This document shows, piece after piece, positions 3,095 through 44,549 of a DNA stretch of 44,549 nucleotides (its first letter is position 1; the number at the start of each line of letters is the position of its first letter). Both the position numbers and the translations under genes were made by a program. The notes beneath the pieces are model-generated. The model saw only the letters and a program-made list of their open reading frames with translations. It did no database searches and was not told the origin of the DNA. Origin of the DNA: a virus; IMG/VR virus record IMGVR_UViG_3300011114_000959, positions 1-44,549 of that record; one strand, written 5' to 3'.

Positions 3095-3814
3095 TTACAG
3101 CGAGATGCACTTGTCACAGGACACCGCGCTGCGCTCTGCCCAATCGGTTCGCCCGCACGACTTGCACGGCTCCTGCTCAAAACCGGTATCCGGCGTTTGC
3201 AACGCAACCTTGCGCGCCCGCAGTTCATTTTGCTGCGCCTCCGTCGCCCCGGACAGCCGCGCGGCGTGAAACGCTTTCTCCAGCTCGGCCATCGTCGCCG
3301 CCTGTCGTCCGGCTGTCATTGCCACATCCAGCGCGGATTGTGGGGCTGGCTTGGTCTGTACGGGCTTGGGTGCGGGCGGAGCGGGCGTTGCCGCCTGTTT
3401 GGCGGGCGCGGGCGTCTGGGGTGATTTGTGCGCCGCAGCGTTGCCGTCGTCGTCGTCCACGCCGATGCCGACGATGGCGCTCAACCCGTAGCGCCGCCCG
3501 TAACTGATTGCGCTGCCCATCCCTTGCGCGTCGGGCTTGCCCGGCTTGCAGGCGAACGTGCCTTCAATCCACTGCCCGCTTGCATGCAAAAGGCGAGTTA
3601 TCACCGTCACCTTCTGCTCGTCGCCCTCAGCGACCTGCACCACGGCCAGACCATGCTTCGCCAGCGGCACGCGGCAGGCGTCAAGCACGCTCGCCAATGT
3701 AGCGTACTTGCTGCCGAAGTGCGGGTTTACGCGGTCTTTGTCCGCATGGGTCAACTCGCCCTGCGCGGCAGACAACGCCGCAGCCAACTTGTCAATTTCG
3801 TTACTCGTTTGCAT
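3095..3814 (-). CDS. erf: ERF-family single-strand annealing recombinase
   Basis: 239-residue protein of the ERF superfamily, which pairs complementary single strands during phage recombination and genome circularisation. The N-terminal 130 residues carry the family signature NPHFGSKYATLASV near residue 30 and GSAISYGRRYGLSAIVGI near residue 100, followed by the acidic DDDDGN. A long Ala/Pro linker (about 130-170) leads to a helical segment and a C-terminal zinc ribbon with C-x2-C and C-x2-C pairs. That added ribbon is not part of the minimal ERF domain and may bind DNA or a partner. The start has an AAGAGG ribosome site. Neighbours (Gp157-like upstream, SSB-like downstream) form a usual phage recombination block. 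Confidence 0.92.
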   Translation of the reverse strand: MQTSNEIDKLAAALSAAQGELTHADKDRVNPHFGSKYATLASVLDACRVPLAKHGLAVVQVAEGDEQKVTVITRLLHASGQWIEGTFACKPGKPDAQGMGSAISYGRRYGLSAIVGIGVDDDDGNAAAHKSPQTPAPAKQAATPAPPAPKPVQTKPAPQSALDVAMTAGRQAATMAELEKAFHAARLSGATEAQQNELRARKVALQTPDTGFEQEPCKSCGRTDWAERSAVSCDKCISL

Positions 3815-5264: not shown

Positions 5265-5452
5265 TTACCCTCCAGCGCATCAAGCGCGGCGTCAAGTTGT
5301 TTTGCTGAGTCTGCCATTGCCCTCCACGCGGCATCTTGGGCGGCAAGCGCATCGCTCCATCGGCGCTGGCATTCGCGGTGTACCTTGGTCGCGGCAATGA
5401 CGGCTGAGCGTGCGGCGTGTTGCTCTGCTGGCGCCTTTGTTGTCGGTTTCAT
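5261..5452 (-). CDS. Small helical protein, unknown function
   Basis: 63 residues, MKPTTKAPAEQ at the start and then one continuous Ala/Glu/Arg-rich helix with four Trp/Arg positions (RRWSDAL, AAWRAM). The ATG at 5452 forms an ATGA overlap with the stop of the XRE coiled-coil gene, and its own stop overlaps the start of the DUF551-like gene in the same way. This supports the short start over one 36 codons earlier, which would lie inside the upstream gene. It may act with the coiled-coil protein, but only the coupling supports this. Confidence 0.55.
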   Translation of the reverse strand: MKPTTKAPAEQHAARSAVIAATKVHRECQRRWSDALAAQDAAWRAMADSAKQLDAALDALEGK

Positions 5453-6207
5453 TTGCCACCGCCTTCGCCGTCGGTCGGCGCGTCCAGAATCGCAAAGATT
5501 TCGCTGTACCCAGCCCTCGCGAAAGGAATTATCGCCGGTCGCTGCTCGTAGCTCAGGCACTTTGTCCGTACTTCCGCCAACTTCGCCTCCGTTGCGGCGA
5601 TTTGGGCGGTCAAATACTCAATCGATTCATCCCGCATTGCGATGACCAGTGCTGAGTCACCTGCCGTGTCGAGCTTCGCCCGCAACCCCGCAATCTCCTC
5701 CTGCGCCGCGTACAACCCCTCGCTCTGAATCAGGTTCGCCTGTTGCAGTGCGGCGATGGTCGCAGCTTGGGCGTCAACATCACCGGCGTATGCATCCCAA
5801 TTCGCCACCGTCGCTCGCAGTTCCGCAATCTCCGCCGCTTGGCTGGCGATGGTCGCGCCGTCCCGCTCAAACCGCGCCTTTGCGCCAGCGTCAAACATTC
5901 CGCCGTCTTGCTCCAGTTCACAGATCATTGCGTGTTGATCGGCAACGCTTGTGCGGAGTTCCGCAATCAAGGCAGCCTGTGCGTCCTCGATTGGGTCGCT
6001 CTCCATCTCACGAAGCGCGGCGAGATCGAGTAGCGGAATGCTGAATAAGCGAGCCGCCTTATCTAGTGTTTGCGCTGACGGTCGCAGTTTGTCGTTCTCC
6101 ATCAACGACAACGCGGCGGCAGAAATGCCCAATAGGGGCGCGGTTTCGCGTAAGCCTTTGTCGCCGTTATTGAATCGCGCCTTTCGCAATGTTTGTCCAA
6201 GCGTCAT
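5449..6207 (-). CDS. XRE-family HTH protein with long coiled-coil tail
   Basis: 252 residues. Residues 1-65 form a Cro/C1-type helix-turn-helix: LGQTLRKAR, then LRETAPLLGISAAALSLME and PSAQTLDKAARLF. After that comes about 150 residues of near-continuous coiled coil with repeated AEIAELRA-like heptads and a short C-terminal globular piece. Such fusions suggest a DNA-binding oligomer. It could regulate early genes or organise phage DNA. No cI/cro switch architecture is visible around it, and the gene lies in the middle of a unidirectional operon, so a lysogeny repressor is unlikely. The ribosome site GGAGAGAGGG is strong. Confidence 0.7.
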   Translation of the reverse strand: MTLGQTLRKARFNNGDKGLRETAPLLGISAAALSLMENDKLRPSAQTLDKAARLFSIPLLDLAALREMESDPIEDAQAALIAELRTSVADQHAMICELEQDGGMFDAGAKARFERDGATIASQAAEIAELRATVANWDAYAGDVDAQAATIAALQQANLIQSEGLYAAQEEIAGLRAKLDTAGDSALVIAMRDESIEYLTAQIAATEAKLAEVRTKCLSYEQRPAIIPFARAGYSEIFAILDAPTDGEGGGK

Positions 6208-6235: not shown

Positions 6236-6445
6236 CTAAATTGGCCCCTTCAGCCGCCACAAATCAACTCCATAAACACTCCGCCCGCGTACCAGCACGC
6301 CAGCGGCTTCCAGTTCGTCCAGCAATTCCCGATACCTGCAGTCCTTCGCCCCTTCACCCTTCGCGCGCAGTTCCGGCAGCGTGCAACCGAGCGGATAGCG
6401 TGCGAGGCGGGCGAGGAGTTGGATGCGGGTTGCTGTGGATTTCAT
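6236..6445 (-). CDS. Small winged-helix-like protein
   Basis: 69 residues with the layout of a winged helix: RIQLLARLARYPLG, then TLPELRAK, CRYRELLDELEAAGVLVR and a terminal strand VYGVDLWRL. Lys and Arg are plentiful, so DNA binding is plausible. The ATG overlaps the stop of the SF2 helicase gene as ATGA. I cannot assign a family, and the HTH reading is an inference from hydrophobic spacing. Confidence 0.6.
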   Translation of the reverse strand: MKSTATRIQLLARLARYPLGCTLPELRAKGEGAKDCRYRELLDELEAAGVLVRGRSVYGVDLWRLKGPI

Positions 6446-8307
6446 TGGGCAACCTCGGCGGTCAACTCAAGGTCAGGCCACGGCAGTTTTTGCGTGCGGC
6501 GATCGCGGATGACCATGCAAACGCCGAACAGGTCGCTGATGTCGCCCTTTTTCAGGCCGTGGAAATTGTCGCCGATGACCCGCAGTGCCTTGCGGTGCAG
6601 CGTCGGGATTTCGGCCACGGTCCCGGTGATTTTCGACAACCAACCCACGTTTTTCGTTTGCTTTTCGCTGGGCGCATCCGACCGCCAGCCCGTCGATTTG
6701 ATCTTGGCCTCGATCAGGCCCGCCAGCGCAAACGCCAGATTGAGCCGCCGGATATAGCTGCGGTACACGCTGAGTTTTTTGACCATCGGCGGGTCCGCGC
6801 CAAGGTCGAGCACAAACTGCGCCTCCTGATCTTCTTCCGGGATTGCCGACTCCGGCGCATCCTGCCCACCCGCCAACATCGCCTCATACGTCAGGCCGAA
6901 AACGTTAAACAGATCATGCGGATCGAGCAGATAGGCGCAGTCCTTGCCGGGGCTGGCGCGCAACACGCGGCCAACCTCCTGACAAAACCGCACCTTGCTG
7001 CCGACGGCGCGGCGCATACAAAGCCAGCGAAGCCAAGGTAAATCAATGCCTTCCGATAGCATGTTCACATGCACCAGCACTTCGATTTCGCCGGTGCGCA
7101 GCGATTCAATCACGTCGGCCTGCTGCGGGCGGGTCAGGCCGAAATGGATGGCGGCTGCGGTCACGCCTGCACGGCGCAGCGTCGCGGCATATCCCTCGGC
7201 GTCGGCAACTGAGGTTGCGTTCGCCAAGCCGGGGCCGTGTCGCAGTGCGTTGCGGATCATCTCGGTGCATGCGTCGTCGAGCGGCATTTCGTCGCCGGTC
7301 CAACTCACAAGCGAGGGCTGCACGATCACGCCGTCGCGCAGCGCGTCAGCCACGCCGTATTCGTACGCCAGATCGGTCCACAGCGACAGACTGCCGCCCC
7401 TTTCGCTGCGGTACGGGGTCGCGGTAAAACCGATTGCCGCAGCTGGTGCAAGAGCTGCGTGCGCGGCGATAATCTGCGCCGTTTCGCTGCGGTGAATTTC
7501 ATCGCCTATCCACAGCGCGACGGTTTTGCCGGTGCGCGCAAGTTCGGCGGCAAGCGCGGTTGCGCTGGCGTTGCAGCACACGATGATCCGCCGCCCGGTT
7601 TCTTTGGCGTGCGTGTAGTAGCGGCCTACGGGTTCGCCACAGATTGTCGCTACGGTCGCGGCCAACTGATCAACCAGGCGCACGGTCGGGGTCGTGATCA
7701 CGATTACGCCGGTTTCATCTGTCGGCGTGCAACGTGCGATTTCGGCTAACAAAATGCTTTTACCACTGCCCATCGTGGCCGACACAACGCTGCGGCGACC
7801 GTCGGCAATCGCAGCAAGCGCCAACGGCAGCGCGGCCCGTTGCCATTCGCGCGGGGTTGCGGTGGCCCACGCACCGGCGATTTCGACCGGCGGCATGATC
7901 ACGCCCAGCGGCGGTTCTAGCGTTGGTGATGCAACATCCGGCAGTTGGTGAACAATCATCGTAGCGGCGTATTCTTTCCTGCGATCTTGTTCCGCCAAAT
8001 GCTCCGCGTAACTGCATCCCTGTCGCTCCTCCCAGCGGCGCAGCCATTCAGCGCGGCAGCGGCGGGCGATTTTGTTTTCTGGGTCGCAGTCGCGCACCTG
8101 CGATAGCAACCAGGATTCCGGCACATCCCGCCACGCCACATCAGCAAACGGCGCATGGCCGGTGGGGGCGGTTTCCGTCGGCGGCCACGAATGATGTCCG
8201 GCGGGGCAACGCACGCCGTACTTTTGATGCATATCGTTAAAGTCAGGCGTATATTCGGCGAGTTTGGCTGTTTGCGGACCGCAGTTTTTGACTTGGCAAT
8301 AAGGCAT
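6442..8307 (-). CDS. SF2 DNA helicase (DEAD/DEAH type)
   Basis: 621-residue ATP-dependent helicase for replication or recombination. A Cys/His-bearing N-terminal part (residues 1-45) leads into a segment around 50-100 (HAPFADVAWRDVPESWLL) that resembles the small DUF3820-like module of phage and bacterial proteins. The helicase core follows: Walker A SATMGSGKS at 177-184, DEIH at 269-272, FTATP at 294-298, and the second RecA domain with LSEGIDLP and the arginine-finger motif QEVGRVLRA. The ATG at 8307 has a GGAGGG site and lies one base after the stop of the SF3 helicase gene. A longer frame upstream would sit inside that gene. UvsW/RadD-like helicases are the nearest functional analogues. 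Confidence 0.9.
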   Translation of the reverse strand: MPYCQVKNCGPQTAKLAEYTPDFNDMHQKYGVRCPAGHHSWPPTETAPTGHAPFADVAWRDVPESWLLSQVRDCDPENKIARRCRAEWLRRWEERQGCSYAEHLAEQDRRKEYAATMIVHQLPDVASPTLEPPLGVIMPPVEIAGAWATATPREWQRAALPLALAAIADGRRSVVSATMGSGKSILLAEIARCTPTDETGVIVITTPTVRLVDQLAATVATICGEPVGRYYTHAKETGRRIIVCCNASATALAAELARTGKTVALWIGDEIHRSETAQIIAAHAALAPAAAIGFTATPYRSERGGSLSLWTDLAYEYGVADALRDGVIVQPSLVSWTGDEMPLDDACTEMIRNALRHGPGLANATSVADAEGYAATLRRAGVTAAAIHFGLTRPQQADVIESLRTGEIEVLVHVNMLSEGIDLPWLRWLCMRRAVGSKVRFCQEVGRVLRASPGKDCAYLLDPHDLFNVFGLTYEAMLAGGQDAPESAIPEEDQEAQFVLDLGADPPMVKKLSVYRSYIRRLNLAFALAGLIEAKIKSTGWRSDAPSEKQTKNVGWLSKITGTVAEIPTLHRKALRVIGDNFHGLKKGDISDLFGVCMVIRDRRTQKLPWPDLELTAEVAQ

Positions 8308-8308
8308 T

Positions 8309-10168
8309 TCAATCCCTCCCATAGCGGCTGTTGTTGCCCCAAGCCCCATCAGCGACGCGGCGGGCGTCACTCTTGATCTCGGCGTTCCACTTGACAACTT
8401 GGCGCGTTTCCTTTGCGAATCCGATAGCTTTGAGGCGGGCAGCGAACAGGTTGCTGGCGGGCGCGCGGTGGCCGTTGTCTTTGGCCCACGCGCAGAAATG
8501 GTTATAAAGCACGCTACCCTGCGTCACAAAGTCGTTTACCTCCATCAGCGATTCGTTGGCCCATGCGCGGATTGGGTTGCTGTCGAGTTGCCAGAGATGC
8601 GTCGCAGCTTCGGCAGATCCAGGGCGAATCAAATGCCCGCGCGCCAGCAATGCGGGCAGCGCCGCCAGCGCGGTAGCGGCAATCTGCGGCGCTTCTGCCG
8701 TCAATTTAGCTTGTAGATTCCGGTCTTGCCGTTCGCGGGGGACGATATTGGCGCAATCCAGCAACACAAGCCGGTCCATCAATGCGCTGTCACGGCTCGG
8801 CGGCAATTCGTTGGCGGCGAAAACATGCGCGCAGCGCGGCACCCAGTCAAACGGCTTTTCCGCCGGGTATCGGCAGTTGACCATTTCGCCGCTGAGAATT
8901 GCCTTGGCAGCTTCGCCATCCATCAATTCGCGGGCGGGAAGTTCATTGACGAAATTGATTCGGCCACCACTCAAGTGCGCGCGGTGGTATTCGGACGACA
9001 TCGCATGCAGGGTGATGGCGCGGTGGCTTGATACCGGAAAGCATGTTGAAATCATGTGTAGTATTTGGCTTTTGCCGGTGTCTTTGGGGCCGACAAGCAG
9101 CGGCGTGTCCTTGTAGCGGGTGGCGATGCCGCAGATTGCCGCGCCCAGCCATTCCCAAAAGTACCGAATCCGCTGATCAAAGTCATCGCATCCGGCCCAC
9201 GTCTGGCTCAGCAGCGTTTCGGCGGTCCACGCTCGCTCTGCCAACGGTGCCAACGGGTAGGCGGCGGAATGATCGCTCTTGACGCGATGGTCGCGAGTCA
9301 TCTTTTCAATAATGATTTCATTGCCATCTATGCGCGCAAACACGTTGGCGAACGGTGCACCAGTAGGTGCCTCTGCAAAAAACTTTGGCGCAAACAACGT
9401 TGTTTTGCAGTTCTGGACGATTCCTTTGACGTTTCCGGCGCTCAACGTAATCGGGCGAAATTTATCAGCATCGCCCTGTTCTCGCGCTGGAACGACAACC
9501 CATTGACCATCATAGCTTTGTGCGGTTTTTGCCAGCGTCTCATCTTCCCAGCGGGTCCATGTGCTGCCGGTGAATTGCCAGATTCGATTTTCGGCGCAGA
9601 CAACGCTTTCGCGCGGGCCGAGGGTGACCGCAAGGTCAAGGCCAAGTTCCACTTCGCCGCCGCGTTTGAATGTTTTTTCTTGCGGCGCGCATTCCTCTGC
9701 GGGATCAGCAGCCAGTGCGGCGTCGCACAACTGGTCAAGTCTGTTGACGCCGCTCGGTGTCGGGCGGGGTGGCGTGGCGGTATCCGGCGGCGGTTTTGGC
9801 CTCTCCGGTTTTGGCCTGTCGGCCACACTGCCGATCGGGTGTTTGCCTTTGCTTAGTGCATCCGACAGCTTGGCGCGCAAATCGCGCTCGGTCCATACAG
9901 GATCGCAAATATCGTTCCAAGCCCAAAGCAGCGGCCACGCCTCCGCTTCACTCAGACCGAAATCGCGCACAAGCATTGCTGCCGTGCCGAATGTGCGGGA
10001 ATTTCCACCCTGCCCTGAAATTGCGCCGGGGCATTTGGCAATCCAAGCCGCCGCGCGTTTGATCCGCACGTCGCTGTTCTGTGAATACATCGGCGGCGTA
10101 AATTCGCGCAACGGCACCGCCGGCAGCTCAGCCACGGCCTGTAGAATTTGGGCAATGGCGTATTTCAT
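8309..10168 (-). CDS. Replicative SF3 helicase, P4/D5 primase-helicase family
   Basis: 619 residues. Residues 30-115 form a helical PriCT-like domain ending PVWTERDLRAKL, followed by a Pro-rich linker. A D5-N-like region (about 185-300) precedes the SF3 ATPase with Walker A GPKDTGKS at 360-367 and Walker B INFVNELP near 405. The D5 C-terminal winged-helix region follows. The polymerising primase domain is missing from this chain and is encoded by the upstream gene, whose stop overlaps this ATG as ATGA. The two probably form a split primase-helicase that unwinds and primes at the repeat-rich region upstream. The start at 10168 was preferred to one 13 codons earlier because of that overlap. Confidence 0.88.
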   Translation of the reverse strand: MKYAIAQILQAVAELPAVPLREFTPPMYSQNSDVRIKRAAAWIAKCPGAISGQGGNSRTFGTAAMLVRDFGLSEAEAWPLLWAWNDICDPVWTERDLRAKLSDALSKGKHPIGSVADRPKPERPKPPPDTATPPRPTPSGVNRLDQLCDAALAADPAEECAPQEKTFKRGGEVELGLDLAVTLGPRESVVCAENRIWQFTGSTWTRWEDETLAKTAQSYDGQWVVVPAREQGDADKFRPITLSAGNVKGIVQNCKTTLFAPKFFAEAPTGAPFANVFARIDGNEIIIEKMTRDHRVKSDHSAAYPLAPLAERAWTAETLLSQTWAGCDDFDQRIRYFWEWLGAAICGIATRYKDTPLLVGPKDTGKSQILHMISTCFPVSSHRAITLHAMSSEYHRAHLSGGRINFVNELPARELMDGEAAKAILSGEMVNCRYPAEKPFDWVPRCAHVFAANELPPSRDSALMDRLVLLDCANIVPRERQDRNLQAKLTAEAPQIAATALAALPALLARGHLIRPGSAEAATHLWQLDSNPIRAWANESLMEVNDFVTQGSVLYNHFCAWAKDNGHRAPASNLFAARLKAIGFAKETRQVVKWNAEIKSDARRVADGAWGNNSRYGRD

Positions 10169-10719
10169 TTGAGCGTCACCATGTAAGGGTCCGTTTTGCA
10201 ATGCCAAAAGCCAGGCACACGCAACACGCGCGATGGATCTGAGACTTTGCTATCGCTGCCGTAGTGTTGCGCAAGTCTGCGCTGTGCATCGGAAAAATCC
10301 AGAATAGGGCAATCGTCGACCAGCCAATATGCGTGTGGGCCGTTGCGCGACTGCACGACGATCGACGGTGGCAAGTGCCACGCGGGCGGCGTGAATCCGT
10401 CGCAGTCGATGAACACCGCGCGGATGCGCGTGATATTCGATGCTTCGCGGCCAAGACCATCGGTTTCATTGACGGTGACAAAAACGCCGCAGCGATCCGC
10501 ATTTGCGCGCGTGAGTCGGACGGCGGCCTCCGCTAGCGTGGCGTAAAAATGCTTGGCCTTGCTGGGGCGCTTGCTGCCGCGCTTGCCGTTCGCCAACAGC
10601 GGCGCGGGCAAATCGTCAAAATATTGCCAAGTGCAGGGCGTTTCTGCGCTGCCGGTCAGCGCGGCAATGTAGGCGGCTGCCATTTTCAGGTCGGGCGAGT
10701 AGGGCAACGCGCACCTCAA
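10165..10719 (-). CDS. Archaeo-eukaryotic-type DNA primase (RepB-like AEP)
   Basis: Up to 184 residues that match the RepB-like primase domain (PF16793 type). The catalytic acids are in FIDCDG (D105, D107), followed by a histidine in GPHAYW (H129) and the DPSRVLRVPG motif at 161-170 that closes the active site. It should lay down primers for phage replication with the SF3 helicase encoded next. The start is uncertain. TTG at 10719 overlaps the stop of an upstream 54-codon frame as TTGA, while the first ATG is at 10683 but has no visible ribosome site. Either leaves the catalytic core intact. Confidence 0.85.
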   Translation of the reverse strand: MRCALPYSPDLKMAAAYIAALTGSAETPCTWQYFDDLPAPLLANGKRGSKRPSKAKHFYATLAEAAVRLTRANADRCGVFVTVNETDGLGREASNITRIRAVFIDCDGFTPPAWHLPPSIVVQSRNGPHAYWLVDDCPILDFSDAQRRLAQHYGSDSKVSDPSRVLRVPGFWHCKTDPYMVTLK

Positions 10720-10880
10720 AACCTAGCCCGCCACGCGATCGCTTCGACACGATCGGGGCGGTGCTGGTCGATTCGCCGCAAGCGGGCGCGGCTCTCGATT
10801 CGGAAACTGGGCACGGGTGCTGCAAGGCGGTCGAAGTCGCTTGCGTGGTCGGTTTTAGCACAGTTCGGCGGCGCGGTCAA
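10716..10880 (-). CDS. Small basic protein upstream of the primase (54 codons)
   Basis: Open frame starting with TTG at 10880. It encodes a hydrophilic, Arg-rich peptide including SDFDRLAAPVPSFRIESRAR and ending RVEAIAWRARF. Composition and codon pattern look coding, and the stop overlaps the primase TTG. There is no good ribosome site and the region just upstream is the repeat array, so the exact start is unsure. If real, it would be a small replication accessory protein, possibly binding the adjacent repeats. Confidence 0.45.
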   Translation of the reverse strand: MTAPPNCAKTDHASDFDRLAAPVPSFRIESRARLRRIDQHRPDRVEAIAWRARF

Positions 10881-10891
10881 TCTTTTTTTTG

Positions 10892-11147
10892 TAGAGGGTG
10901 TTAGAGGGTGCGTTAGAGGGTGGAACGCAATAAAATCAGTGACATTAGAGGGCTTAGAGGGCTAGAGGGTCGGGGGTCGCATGCGTGCGCGCATGCATGC
11001 GCATGCGCGCATGCGAGGGGCTTTTTACCCTCTACACCCTCTAAGCCCTCTAATGTGCCTGAAACTGCTACACAAAAAAAATCCGTACCCTCTAAAAAAA
11101 CACCTGTACCCTCTAATGTCGTTGAAATCATTAGGGCGTACCCTCTA
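10892..11147. repeat. Candidate replication origin: 6 + 6 inverted TAGAGGG units around a central dyad
   Basis: Six TAGAGGG heptamers start at 10892, 10902, 10914, 10946, 10955 and 10963. Six inverted CCCTCTA copies start at 11028, 11037, 11046, 11088, 11109 and 11141. Between them lies a 38-base alternating purine-pyrimidine tract. A-runs occur near 11073-11080 and 11094-11100. The array is non-coding and lies directly before the primase and helicases, as iteron origins do. The number and symmetry of the units are seen directly. The origin function is inferred. A partition or transcription-control site is the alternative. Confidence 0.65.
10978..11015. repeat. 38-bp alternating purine-pyrimidine tract (Z-DNA/cruciform-prone)
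   Basis: A run of GC/GT/AT steps built from overlapping GCATGC and GCGCGC palindromes, with strict alternation of purine and pyrimidine. Sequences of this kind can adopt Z-form DNA or extrude a hairpin under negative supercoiling. It marks the symmetry centre of the two heptamer blocks. Confidence 0.75.
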
Positions 11148-11164
11148 ATGTCGTTGAAATCATT
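11106..11164. repeat. 27-bp exact direct repeat (two copies, 32-bp period)
   Basis: Copies at 11106-11132 and 11138-11164 each contain one CCCTCTA unit followed by ATGTCGTTGAAATCATT. A diverged copy in inverted orientation lies on the other side of the centre, at about 10929-10952. The 32-bp period is three helical turns, which would place both copies on one face of the DNA for a bound initiator. Confidence 0.8.
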
Positions 11165-11228
11165 CAAATCCACCTATCGTCGGCGTACCGCCTCTTGCGC
11201 TCCGCCTCAAGCTCTTTGTCCCATGCTT

Positions 11229-11639
11229 TCAGCGAGTCGAGACACTCTCGTAGATGGGCGTTGGAATTTCTCGCCAGCAGTCGGGCGCGTGCAGCTCATG
11301 TTTTGCCACGTTGTGATCATTCCGGGGCACCCACTCAGGCGGATAATGTTTGTAGCAAATTCGCGTAGCTAGCCAGCAACCTTTCGGCGTTGCCACCAAA
11401 ACTTCAATGTTCGCGGGCGCTTGGTCAACGTCATGATTCCAACCAGCGGCGTCCACGGTCGATTTGACGGCGTGACGCTCGTCGCAGAAGTCCTTGGCGG
11501 CTCGCCGTGCGTCCAGCGCCCGCGAATACTCGTCGTATTTCGCGGCGTCGTGCAGCGCTTTGAGTTCGCGCATTGTCGGGTGCTTGTGGGTCGGGCAGTC
11601 CGCAACTTTGCAGGTAGTTGTTATTTTGGGCATGTTCAT
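11229..11639 (-). CDS. DUF551-like small phage protein
   Basis: 136 residues starting MNMPKITTTCKVADCP, with an N-terminal Cys/His cluster (C-x4-C then H-x-H). A helical linker precedes a C-terminal half that ends DCWREIPTP, with strands VLVATPKGCWLATRI and a Trp-x-Pro pair, loosely like DUF551. The ATG overlaps the upstream stop as ATGA. It is the last gene before the candidate origin. Role unknown. Confidence 0.6.
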   Translation of the reverse strand: MNMPKITTTCKVADCPTHKHPTMRELKALHDAAKYDEYSRALDARRAAKDFCDERHAVKSTVDAAGWNHDVDQAPANIEVLVATPKGCWLATRICYKHYPPEWVPRNDHNVAKHELHAPDCWREIPTPIYESVSTR

Positions 11640-12324: not shown

Positions 12325-12458
12325 GATAGCCACAATCTCCAAAAAAACCGCGCGATCCGTCTGCGCAGCGTGAGTTTTGCCAGCCGGCAGCGAGTGCAGC
12401 GGGATTGCGGGTCCAAAGAAAAGCGAAGCGGTTGGCGGCATTGAGCGCAGTTGGTCAT
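12321..12458 (-). CDS. Tiny zinc-ribbon protein (45 codons)
   Basis: 45 residues with two C-x2-C knuckles, NCAQC near residue 4 and RCTRC near residue 22, the classical spacing of a single rubredoxin-like zinc ribbon. A strongly basic, Trp-containing tail follows (RRRIARFFWRLWLS). The ATG overlaps the HNH endonuclease stop as ATGA, and the stop overlaps the next start. Both of these tandem small proteins could bind nucleic acid. Confidence 0.55.
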   Translation of the reverse strand: MTNCAQCRQPLRFSLDPQSRCTRCRLAKLTLRRRIARFFWRLWLS

Positions 12459-13039
12459 GGCAGCAATCCTTGCGATTCTATTGGGTTGCACCATTGCTCG
12501 GCGATTTTGGTAGCCCAAGCGATGAACTCAGCACGCCCTCTGGTTCCTTTGGCGATGTTGCAGGTGCCGCAACACGGCAGACAGTTGTTTGCTGTGTACG
12601 GTTTGGTTGAGTCGGCGCGGTCGATTCCGTTGTAAGTGAAGCCACTCGGGTTGTGTTTATTCCGTTTTACGTTTCCGCCTGGGTCGCCGCAGTAGTGGCA
12701 TGGTGCACGGATAAGTTTCTCAACCTCGGGATAGGTAAGGTGGAATTCAATGGATCGGTTTCGGGCATGACGTTTGTACTGTAAAATTATCTGGTTGATA
12801 ATTCCTCGGTCGTTCTGAAGTCGATGTCTACCTCTAGCCTCGTTCGATAGACACCCGCAACTCCTGGTGTTTCCGGATCTCAAAAGGGATCCTTGAACGG
12901 TCTTTATTTTTCCGCAGTCGCACTGAACTTCGTAGTGCCTGCGATGGCGATGGTCATGGTGGGAAAATGAAACAACCGTCAACCGAGTGAATCGGTCGCC
13001 GGTTTTGACTAGATGAGTGGAAGCATTGTTGATTGGCAT
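12455..13039 (-). CDS. HNH endonuclease with N-terminal AP2-like DNA-binding region
   Basis: 194 residues. The N-terminal half has the pattern of phage homing-endonuclease-associated domains: GDRFTRLTVV, then YEVQCDCG, and GNTRSCGCL. The C-terminal half is an HNH core: CHYCGDPGG, then YNGIDRADSTKPYTANNCLPCC, and CNIAKG. Stand-alone enzymes of this kind cut DNA site-specifically and spread by homing. The ATG at 13039 has no good ribosome site, and 66 bases separate it from the upstream gene, unlike the tight packing around it, which fits a mobile insertion. Confidence 0.82.
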   Translation of the reverse strand: MPINNASTHLVKTGDRFTRLTVVSFSHHDHRHRRHYEVQCDCGKIKTVQGSLLRSGNTRSCGCLSNEARGRHRLQNDRGIINQIILQYKRHARNRSIEFHLTYPEVEKLIRAPCHYCGDPGGNVKRNKHNPSGFTYNGIDRADSTKPYTANNCLPCCGTCNIAKGTRGRAEFIAWATKIAEQWCNPIESQGLLP

Positions 13040-13105
13040 GGGCCGTACTTTATCAGGTATTCGGCGTGATTGCAAATGAATAATGTGTATTGATCTGCAA
13101 GGGCT

Positions 13106-15891: not shown

Positions 15892-16437
15892 GTGGCGAAA
15901 AGACAGGCGGATGCGAGCGAAGGGCAACCGAAAGCGGGCGATTCTGCCGCTGAATGGGTTTTGATCAGCGACCTGTTGCCGTGGGCTAAAAATCCGCGCG
16001 ACAACAAGCAGGCGATCTTAAAAGTTGCTAAAAGTGTCAAGCGGTTCGGTTTCGGCGCGCCACTTGTCGCGCGATTGGCGAACAAATTTGTCATCGCGGG
16101 GCACACTCGCATTCTCGGCGCGCTGCATCCTCTGAACAAAATGACAATTGTGCCAGTGCGTTATCTCGACATCTCACAAGCTGAAGCTGAAGCGCTGGCA
16201 TTGGCCGACAACAAACTGGGCGAGATCGCAACGTGGGACGATGCCGCGCTGGCCGATGTGCTGCGCGAGATTCAAGCGGCGGATGCAAGTTTGCTTGCGG
16301 ATACGGGATTCAGCGAGGCGGAGATCAAGGAACTGATCGACGGACCAGATTTTCAACCAAGCGGCAATGAGCCGCCGCGTTTGGACGAAAAGAAGCCGAC
16401 TTGTTGCCCAAGTTGCGGTCACACATGGACCGTGTAG
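15892..16437 (+). CDS. ParB/Srx-like N-domain protein with C-terminal Cys cluster
   Basis: 181 residues. Residues 20-115 form a ParB-type domain: EWVLISDLLPWAKNPRDN, the box with IAGHTR at 69-73, and a helix ALALADNKLGE. The C-terminus ends CCPSCGHTW (C171, C172, C175), half of a zinc ribbon. In phages such domains accompany DNA-modification genes and may use nucleotide or bind DNA. GTG at 15892 was chosen because upstream codons look non-coding. GGAAGTGG precedes it. The end overlaps the Mom-like gene by 13 bases, implying coupling. No ParA partner or centromere array was seen, so plasmid partition is unlikely. Confidence 0.8.
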   Translation: MAKRQADASEGQPKAGDSAAEWVLISDLLPWAKNPRDNKQAILKVAKSVKRFGFGAPLVARLANKFVIAGHTRILGALHPLNKMTIVPVRYLDISQAEAEALALADNKLGEIATWDDAALADVLREIQAADASLLADTGFSEAEIKELIDGPDFQPSGNEPPRLDEKKPTCCPSCGHTWTV

Positions 16438-17147
16438 ATCCAGCAAAACCGTTGCATTTGGCGTGGGTTGACCATGCGGCGGCGAAATACGCCTGCGAGC
16501 ATTGGCATTATTCCAAATGTATTCCGGTATTTAAGATTGCACCGCTCGGGGTTTGGGAATTTGGCAGATTTGTCGGCGTCGTGATTTTTAGTGTGGGGGC
16601 GTCTCCGGATTTGGTCAAACCCTATGGTTTAACACAACAACAGGGGTGCGAATTGACGCGAGTCGCACTCGCCAAACACAAAAATTCGGTGTCAAAAATA
16701 CTCTCGATCGCGTTCCGAATGTTGCGGAAACAATCGCCAAATTTGCGGCTTTTGGTATCATTTGCCGACGGTGAACAGGGGCACCACGGCGGGATTTATC
16801 AAGCGGGCGGTTGGGTGTATTCAGGAAGTCAAACATTTCATGCGTATCGCGTTTTGGGGAAAATTGAACATCCCAAAACGTTGTATATGCGCTATGGTGT
16901 CGGCGGCCAATCAATTCCATGGCTTATCGCAAATGTTGACCCGAACGCGGAGAGAATCAAAAACGGGCTAAAACATCGCTACCTCATGCCGTTAGATCCT
17001 GAAATGCACAAGAAAATTCTACCATTAGCAAAGCCGTATCCCAAACGGCCAAATGCGTCCGCTTCCAGCGAAGGCGTTGCGTTCCCCGCAGCGAACGACG
17101 GGGCAGCACCGATCCGGACGCTCCAATCTGAGGAATCTGATGGCTGA
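16425..17147 (+). CDS. mom: Mom-like DNA adenine hypermodification protein
   Basis: 240 residues matching the Mom family, GNAT-fold enzymes. Phage Mu Mom converts adenine to a carbamoylmethyl-type derivative that blocks many restriction enzymes. Visible family features are HWHYSKCIPVF, GVWEFGRFVGVVIF, the core ELTRVALAKHKNSVSKIL, LLVSFADGEQGHHGGIYQAG, and KHRYLMPLDPEM near the end. It starts inside the ParB-like gene and has only a weak ribosome site, so translation is probably coupled to it. In Mu, expression also depends on a zinc protein (Com) encoded just upstream and overlapping. The likely role is protection of phage DNA before packaging. The chemical product and target site are not shown by sequence. 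Confidence 0.85.
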   Translation: MDRVDPAKPLHLAWVDHAAAKYACEHWHYSKCIPVFKIAPLGVWEFGRFVGVVIFSVGASPDLVKPYGLTQQQGCELTRVALAKHKNSVSKILSIAFRMLRKQSPNLRLLVSFADGEQGHHGGIYQAGGWVYSGSQTFHAYRVLGKIEHPKTLYMRYGVGGQSIPWLIANVDPNAERIKNGLKHRYLMPLDPEMHKKILPLAKPYPKRPNASASSEGVAFPAANDGAAPIRTLQSEESDG

Positions 17148-44377: not shown

Positions 44378-44549
44378 TCAAAACAACTCAACTTGCTCAG
44401 CCTTGGGCGCGTCGAATTGAAACACCGGCGTAAATCCGCGATCCAGCCGTCGCTTGGCTTTGGCGAATGTCGCGTTATCAATCTCGCTGCCGACGAACCG
44501 CCGTCCCTCAATCAGCGCGGCAAGGCCTGTTGTCGCACCGCCAAGGCAA
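44378..44549 (-). CDS. DNA methyltransferase, C-terminal part (continues from position 1)
   Basis: The last codons of the methyltransferase. The stop at 44378 follows QVELF. Bases 44423-44549 repeat the segment at 1-127, so only 44378-44422 (14 codons and the stop) add new sequence. The frame joins exactly, which supports circularity. The gene is described in full at its N-terminal entry. Confidence 0.85.
   Translation of the reverse strand, partial: CLGGATTGLAALIEGRRFVGSEIDNATFAKAKRRLDRGFTPVFQFDAPKAEQVELF
44423..44549. repeat. Right copy of the 127-bp terminal direct repeat
   Basis: Identical to bases 1-127. See the left copy. Together they define the circular genome of 44,422 bases. Confidence 0.95.

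Follow-up and report, generated by a model that had tools for sequence, protein, structure and literature searches.

A putative replication origin of opposing heptamer iterons in a tailed phage, and similar arrays beside related primases in phages and plasmids

Results and Discussion

An array of opposing heptamers next to the replication genes

The DNA analysed here, a 44,549-bp IMG/VR virus record referred to as the window, carries an array of short repeated words which, we infer, is very likely the replication origin of the phage, with the words acting as its iterons; this origin would be opened by the phage SF3 helicase via its C-terminal winged helix. Judged by comparison with dozens of related phages and a plasmid, the array is almost certainly the site where the phage begins copying its own DNA. 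A word search over the whole window recovered exactly six TAGAGGG and six CCCTCTA words, all of them at 10892-11147, and none elsewhere in the 44,549 bp. The two sets face each other as described in the original prediction, which had also correctly identified a strictly alternating purine-pyrimidine tract between them, two 27-bp direct repeats with a 32-bp period, A-tracts, and the adjoining genes for a primase, an SF3 helicase and an SF2 helicase, all leftward and directly left of the array. The features are as follows.

10892-10969, plus strand: left iteron block, six TAGAGGG directed toward the centre (starts at 10892, 10902, 10914, 10946, 10955 and 10963)
11028-11147, minus strand: right iteron block, six CCCTCTA (TAGAGGG on the minus strand) directed toward the centre (starts at 11028, 11037, 11046, 11088, 11109 and 11141)
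10978-11015, no strand assigned: centre, 38 bp, strictly alternating purine-pyrimidine, GC-rich and self-complementary; candidate opening or extrusion element
10936-10961, plus strand: left arm of a 26-bp inverted repeat, 92% complementary, holding two words; partner at 11037-11062
11037-11062, minus strand: right arm of the inverted repeat, 26 bp
11106-11132, plus strand: direct repeat 1, 27 bp, GTACCCTCTAATGTCGTTGAAATCATT, including one word
11138-11164, plus strand: direct repeat 2, 27 bp, identical to repeat 1, 32-bp period
10883-10890 and 11074-11081: T8/A8 tracts
10165-10719, minus strand: RepB'-type archaeo-eukaryotic primase (AEP), 184 aa (Pfam RepB_primase)
8309-10168, minus strand: SF3 (DUF5906/D5-type) helicase, probable start ATG at 10168 (ORF 10207-8309)
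8387-8575, minus strand: C-terminal winged-helix domain of the SF3 helicase, candidate TAGAGGG reader (Pox_D5, Pfam E 5e-4)
6442-8397, minus strand: SF2 helicase, in the same leftward operon as the primase and the SF3 helicase

The proposed mirror symmetry holds for the two opposing six-word blocks and not for their spacings, which run 10, 12, 32, 9 and 8 (start to start) in the left block and 9, 9, 42, 21 and 32 in the right one, so that the mirror is inexact. All twelve words are constant over 7 bp and their flanking bases vary, with a preference for T before the word (9/12) and T or C after it; within 10700-11300, only one copy with a single mismatch was detected (TAGATGG at 11251). The cluster scores 35.5, compared with 7.3 for the best of 20 Markov-1 simulations of the window, and a twelve-word array is far beyond chance. 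So is a 38-bp alternating tract: the next longest alternating run of the window measures 14 bp, and the longest across 40 simulations 26 bp. The entire array stretch can be folded as a single long hairpin (z = -10) and is more AT-rich than its own genome (rank 0.03); searches for sigma-70 promoters, terminators, tRNAs and Rfam families were negative there. The GC-skew minimum, at 8149, lies near the array and not at it, on a profile that is flat over 7-13 kb and confounded by gene direction.

Profile matches of the primase family in the PDB are RSF1010 RepB' (3h20/3h25) and the AEP domain of PrimPol (6zp9). Because the primase TGA overlaps the SF3 ATG (ATGA, 10165-10170), primase and SF3 helicase are two coupled genes and not one broken gene, and a split by frameshift or assembly error was rejected. 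Both proteins are fused in most relatives and split, as in the window, in the viral loci L046-L051. The C-terminus of the SF3 helicase is predicted to form a winged helix (core pLDDT 74-85); as the full-length model has a mean pLDDT of 42, the fold search was conducted with the C-terminal domain alone. Its best PDB match is the RFX DNA-binding domain 1dp7 (Foldseek probability 1.00, with a weak E-value of 0.027); further matches include the C-terminal region of ASFV PrimPol. Among relatives, Pfam matches to RFX and Pox_D5 were obtained in 2/41 and 4/41 cases, respectively. The array of the window, being located 5' of the primase gene, is about 2.7 kb away from the 3' end that encodes this putative reader.

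Conservation of the architecture beside related primases

Relatives were gathered by their primase: 13 viral loci were collected first, and an alignment-based search then gave 80 viral and 43 prokaryote-genome loci. Each locus was scanned on both strands for clusters of any 7-mer. A mixed-orientation cluster of its own 7-bp word, starting within -100 to +160 of the stop codon, is present at 33 of the 62 non-redundant primase-helicase ORFs and at none of the 64 other long ORFs of the same loci, single-strand coding-repeat clusters being excluded from these counts and a few mixed calls (L041, L045 and L092) being doubtful. When counted by groups, 33 of 82 have an array, versus 2.2 expected. Clusters of the CAGCACC type (Vibrio phages L041-L045 and others) were rejected as same-strand repeats of coding DNA. 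The usual position of the array is constant, with a start no more than a few tens of bases from the stop of the primase-helicase ORF. About half of the family ORFs have no detectable array, several Vibrio phages among them. In BPP-1, there is only a weak four-site cluster, about 480-560 bp 3' of bbp29, and no cluster was found at the gene in Pondi and Mulvp2.

Conservation beside related primases had been set as the check on which the origin reading could fail. The reading came through: as far as sequence comparison can tell, it is the architecture of the array, and not its sequence, which is conserved beside related primases, in phages from several phyla and in a plasmid, and this supports the interpretation as a replication origin. 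The nearest viral relatives (L046-L051) have their cluster 5' of the primase, like the window, which groups in a supported clade with them and with L126, a Myxococcales MAG contig. The latter is the nearest relative overall and carries a 3+3 mirror array.

The exact array sequence has no match in named phages, and neither the exact word nor the 6+6 layout occurs elsewhere among the sequences searched. A search of viral contigs for the triple TTAGAGGG returned mostly tandem or regularly spaced same-strand repeats, and the architecture of the window was not recovered with the ordered spacer pattern.

Two named elements illustrate the family. In Moraxella phage Mcat10, the helicase stop is directly followed by nine GCAGACA words; an annotated attL is located just past this iteron array (L170:3801-3813), origin and attachment site thus adjoining. 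The circular plasmid of Deinococcus sp. AB2017081 (L176, NZ_CP140101) has six CTTCACC words per unit across the end of its primase gene; the 33.6-kb record contains the 16.8-kb plasmid twice, head to tail, and there is one primase gene and one array per unit. This primase, of the same type, is the only annotated replication gene, in a plasmid gene table that is incomplete. The Deinococcus plasmid comes closest to a natural plasmid test of such an array, although another replication gene is possible.

Shared anatomy and the alternating centre

The spacing between neighbouring words on the same strand falls within 8-12 bp for 79 of 107 pairs and is most often 9 bp, independently of the word itself. 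Words switch orientation less often than chance would give (99 switches vs 122.5; p 0.0008), and 21 of 47 arrays have a single switch, i.e. are mirror arrays. The minimal form is 2+2 (L109, L125, L106, L164 and L097).

Family arrays are AT-rich relative to their own loci, and in 9 of 44 (about a fifth), the array has a longest alternating purine-pyrimidine run that stands out as exceptional within its own locus; as the segments used for comparison are mostly coding DNA, part of both signals may be a general property of non-coding DNA. The doubtful mixed calls L041, L045 and L092 were left out of this analysis. Near the array middle, the alternating run is of GC type in L052, L057, L061 and L099 and of AT type in L075. 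The Z-DNA-prone centre, which had been singled out as unusual, is indeed unusual, but it recurs in a minority of relatives, among which the 38-bp tract of the window is the extreme case.

Changing words and the identity of the reader

Words can change in concert between close relatives. The primase-helicases of L077 and L082 are about 93% identical and their origin scaffolds are homologous, but the words are GTCCCCC in one and GTCAACCC in the other at matching places, all words having changed in concert (L077:4612-5040; L082:6419-6850). As primases 92-96% identical accompany different words, the primase is disfavoured as the word reader, and the word would evolve in concert with some other protein. 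In L127 and L129, whose primases are almost the same, the words differ and the C-termini have diverged (24-48% over the final two 50-residue bins). In L076/L089 and L077/L082, on the other hand, the C-termini are 89-95% identical and yet the words differ. The L076 array (7604-8160) contains two GCCCGGAT and four CGTCACA/TGTGACG words, whereas GCCCGGA is found in its close relative L089, as if one word were in the course of being replaced by another in L076.

At least four helicase types are found behind the same RepB'-type primase in the family alignment (DUF5906/D5, VapE-like, AAA_25 RecA-type and DUF3987), and arrays accompany several of them, so that the reader need not be homologous across the family. 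The C-terminal domain of the helicase is the best candidate reader, although the two pairs with similar C-termini and different words tell against a firm assignment.

Comparison with known origins and proposed mechanism

The plan of the array had been thought to be undescribed. This is not the case: a melting site with short iterons on both sides, in two opposing sets, beside a primase or initiator gene, is the published plan of PICI and SaPI origins (PMC6092414, PMC7581432). In PICIs, two iteron sets flank the presumed melting site, and pri-rep-ori segments drive plasmid replication (PMC6092414); in SaPI Rep and SCCmec Cch2, it is the C-terminal domain that reads short iterons, and SaPI Rep apparently does so in the form of two hexamers (PMC7581432). 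Like SaPIbov1, SaPI1 and E. coli EcCICFT073 (PMC6092414, PMC7581432), the window has two short-iteron sets around a centre (6+6 around 10978-11015) and an adjacent AEP primase with a D5/SF3-type initiator whose C-terminal DNA-binding domain is, in the window, a predicted one; iteron sequence also varies from element to element in both. The SaPI/PICI centre is AT-rich, whereas that of the window is GC-rich and alternating, though the whole window array is AT-rich. Their origins lie immediately 3' of rep, as do most arrays of the present family relative to the primase-helicase gene, while the window array is 5' of the primase, as in L046-L051. Finally, SaPIs and PICIs are satellites, whereas the window is a tailed phage that encodes terminase, portal, capsid and tape measure proteins, with 6+6 heptamers and a RepB'-type primase. 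The window origin thus probably follows the PICI plan in a phage, with two deviations, namely its position 5' of the primase and its alternating GC-rich centre.

Other systems share fewer elements with the window. At the putative SCCmec origin, too, a D5-type helicase, Cch2, uses a C-terminal DNA-binding domain to read short repeats (AAGTG), which lie just 3' of its gene (PMC7581432); these are only three direct repeats of 5 nt, however, and the primase, which acts with a small partner, belongs to the PolA family instead of being an AEP. In pRN1, an essential origin lies directly 3' of the ORF904 gene, which encodes AEP, SF3 and C-terminal winged-helix domains (PMC4234260); its origin resembles the window array in strong hairpin potential and in having structure rather than sequence conserved, but it is a single large stem-loop without iterons, in an archaeal plasmid. 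RSF1010 oriV (RepA/RepB'/RepC) shares iterons and the RepB'-type primase, and differs by its RecA-type RepA helicase, its separate RepC iteron binder and its ssi hairpins, the window having an SF3 helicase and no RepC-like neighbour that we could find; some relatives of the window carry AAA_25 helicases. In SV40 and papillomavirus origins, short words in opposing blocks are read by the DNA-binding domain of the SF3 helicase itself, which assembles as a double ring. These origins, cited as an analogy in PMC7581432, differ in that the DNA-binding domain is N-terminal and of another fold, and no homology is claimed.

By analogy with SaPI/PICI Rep and SCCmec Cch2, TAGAGGG would be the private iteron of this phage, bound by the SF3 helicase through its C-terminal winged helix. 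Specific binding of the words by an initiator would agree, indirectly, with their constancy amid variable flanks and with the concerted changes in relatives. One helicase ring would be assembled on each half-array, and the two rings would face each other across the centre, which would then open or extrude. The coupled RepB'-type primase may prime the exposed strands, and forks would proceed in two directions.

Alternative explanations

The likeliest of the alternatives concerns the reader. Iterons could serve as origin sites and be read by a separate phage protein, in the manner of RSF1010 RepC, instead of by the SF3 C-terminus. The primase is RepB'-like, and RSF1010 does have a separate iteron binder (PMC4234260); moreover, arrays persist when the helicase type switches behind the same primase, and words change in L077/L082 and L076/L089 with almost unchanged C-termini. 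However, neither a RepC-like gene nor any other conserved gene for a small DNA-binding protein turned up next to the arrays, the neighbours in the window being unmatched or scattered in the loci of relatives, and the winged helix predicted at the SF3 C-terminus has counterparts in use in SaPI Rep and Cch2 (PMC7581432). We thus consider a separate reader rather unlikely, while giving it real weight.

Explanations without any origin function fare worse. The words might be operator sites for a phage repressor or activator, such as the XRE-type protein encoded at 5449-6207, controlling the leftward replication operon; the array does occupy the gap 5' of the replication genes, and a helix-turn-helix protein is encoded in the same operon. 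Yet in relatives, most arrays abut the stop of the primase-helicase gene on its 3' side, where they cannot be the promoter of that gene, and no sigma-70-like promoter was detected in or near the window array. We know of no operator layout with twelve sites in mirror blocks, and regard this explanation as improbable. Still less probable is a plasmid-type partition site or an incompatibility or copy-control locus distinct from the start site: iteron arrays can control copy number and the phage may be temperate or plasmid-like, but the window genes tested included no ParA/ParB pair, and the array tracks the primase-helicase gene across elements. As the window was assembled from a metagenome and its ends overlap by 127 bp, in a way typical of assemblers, a non-functional tandem repeat or assembly artefact must also be considered. 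This can practically be dismissed, as words are invariant at 7 bp where flanks vary and similar architecture occurs in isolated organisms and dozens of contigs.

A proposed family of origins with private words

An origin family with private words in phages and plasmids is a broader and more interesting result than the window origin itself. We tentatively suggest that many phages and plasmids with RepB'-type primases may share one origin design. Each lineage would have its own 7-bp word, rewritten together with the protein that reads it, and an alternating tract prone to Z-DNA or cruciform formation could take the place of the AT-rich opening element, most extremely so in the window. More generally, a private inverted heptamer cluster at the stop of, or just upstream of, a RepB'-type primase-helicase gene provides a rule for recognizing origins from sequence only, across many phages that have been little studied. 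The results also suggest that full phages and plasmids share the PICI origin plan, which has been described as unique to satellites. Concerted word changes in near-identical relatives make initiator-origin co-evolution directly testable, as well as origin-based incompatibility or interference between phages.

Other features of the window

The window has a 127-bp direct terminal repeat (1-127 and 44423-44549). This is also the length of a k-mer often used in assembly, and a circular or circularly permuted genome is more probable than one bounded by true terminal repeats. An Endonuclease VII/HNH-type nuclease (12455-13075) adjoins the replication genes, an ERF-family single-strand annealing protein is encoded at 3095-3814, and a Mom-family protein, i.e. 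a Mu-type DNA modification gene, is located at 16401-17147 (E 4e-49).
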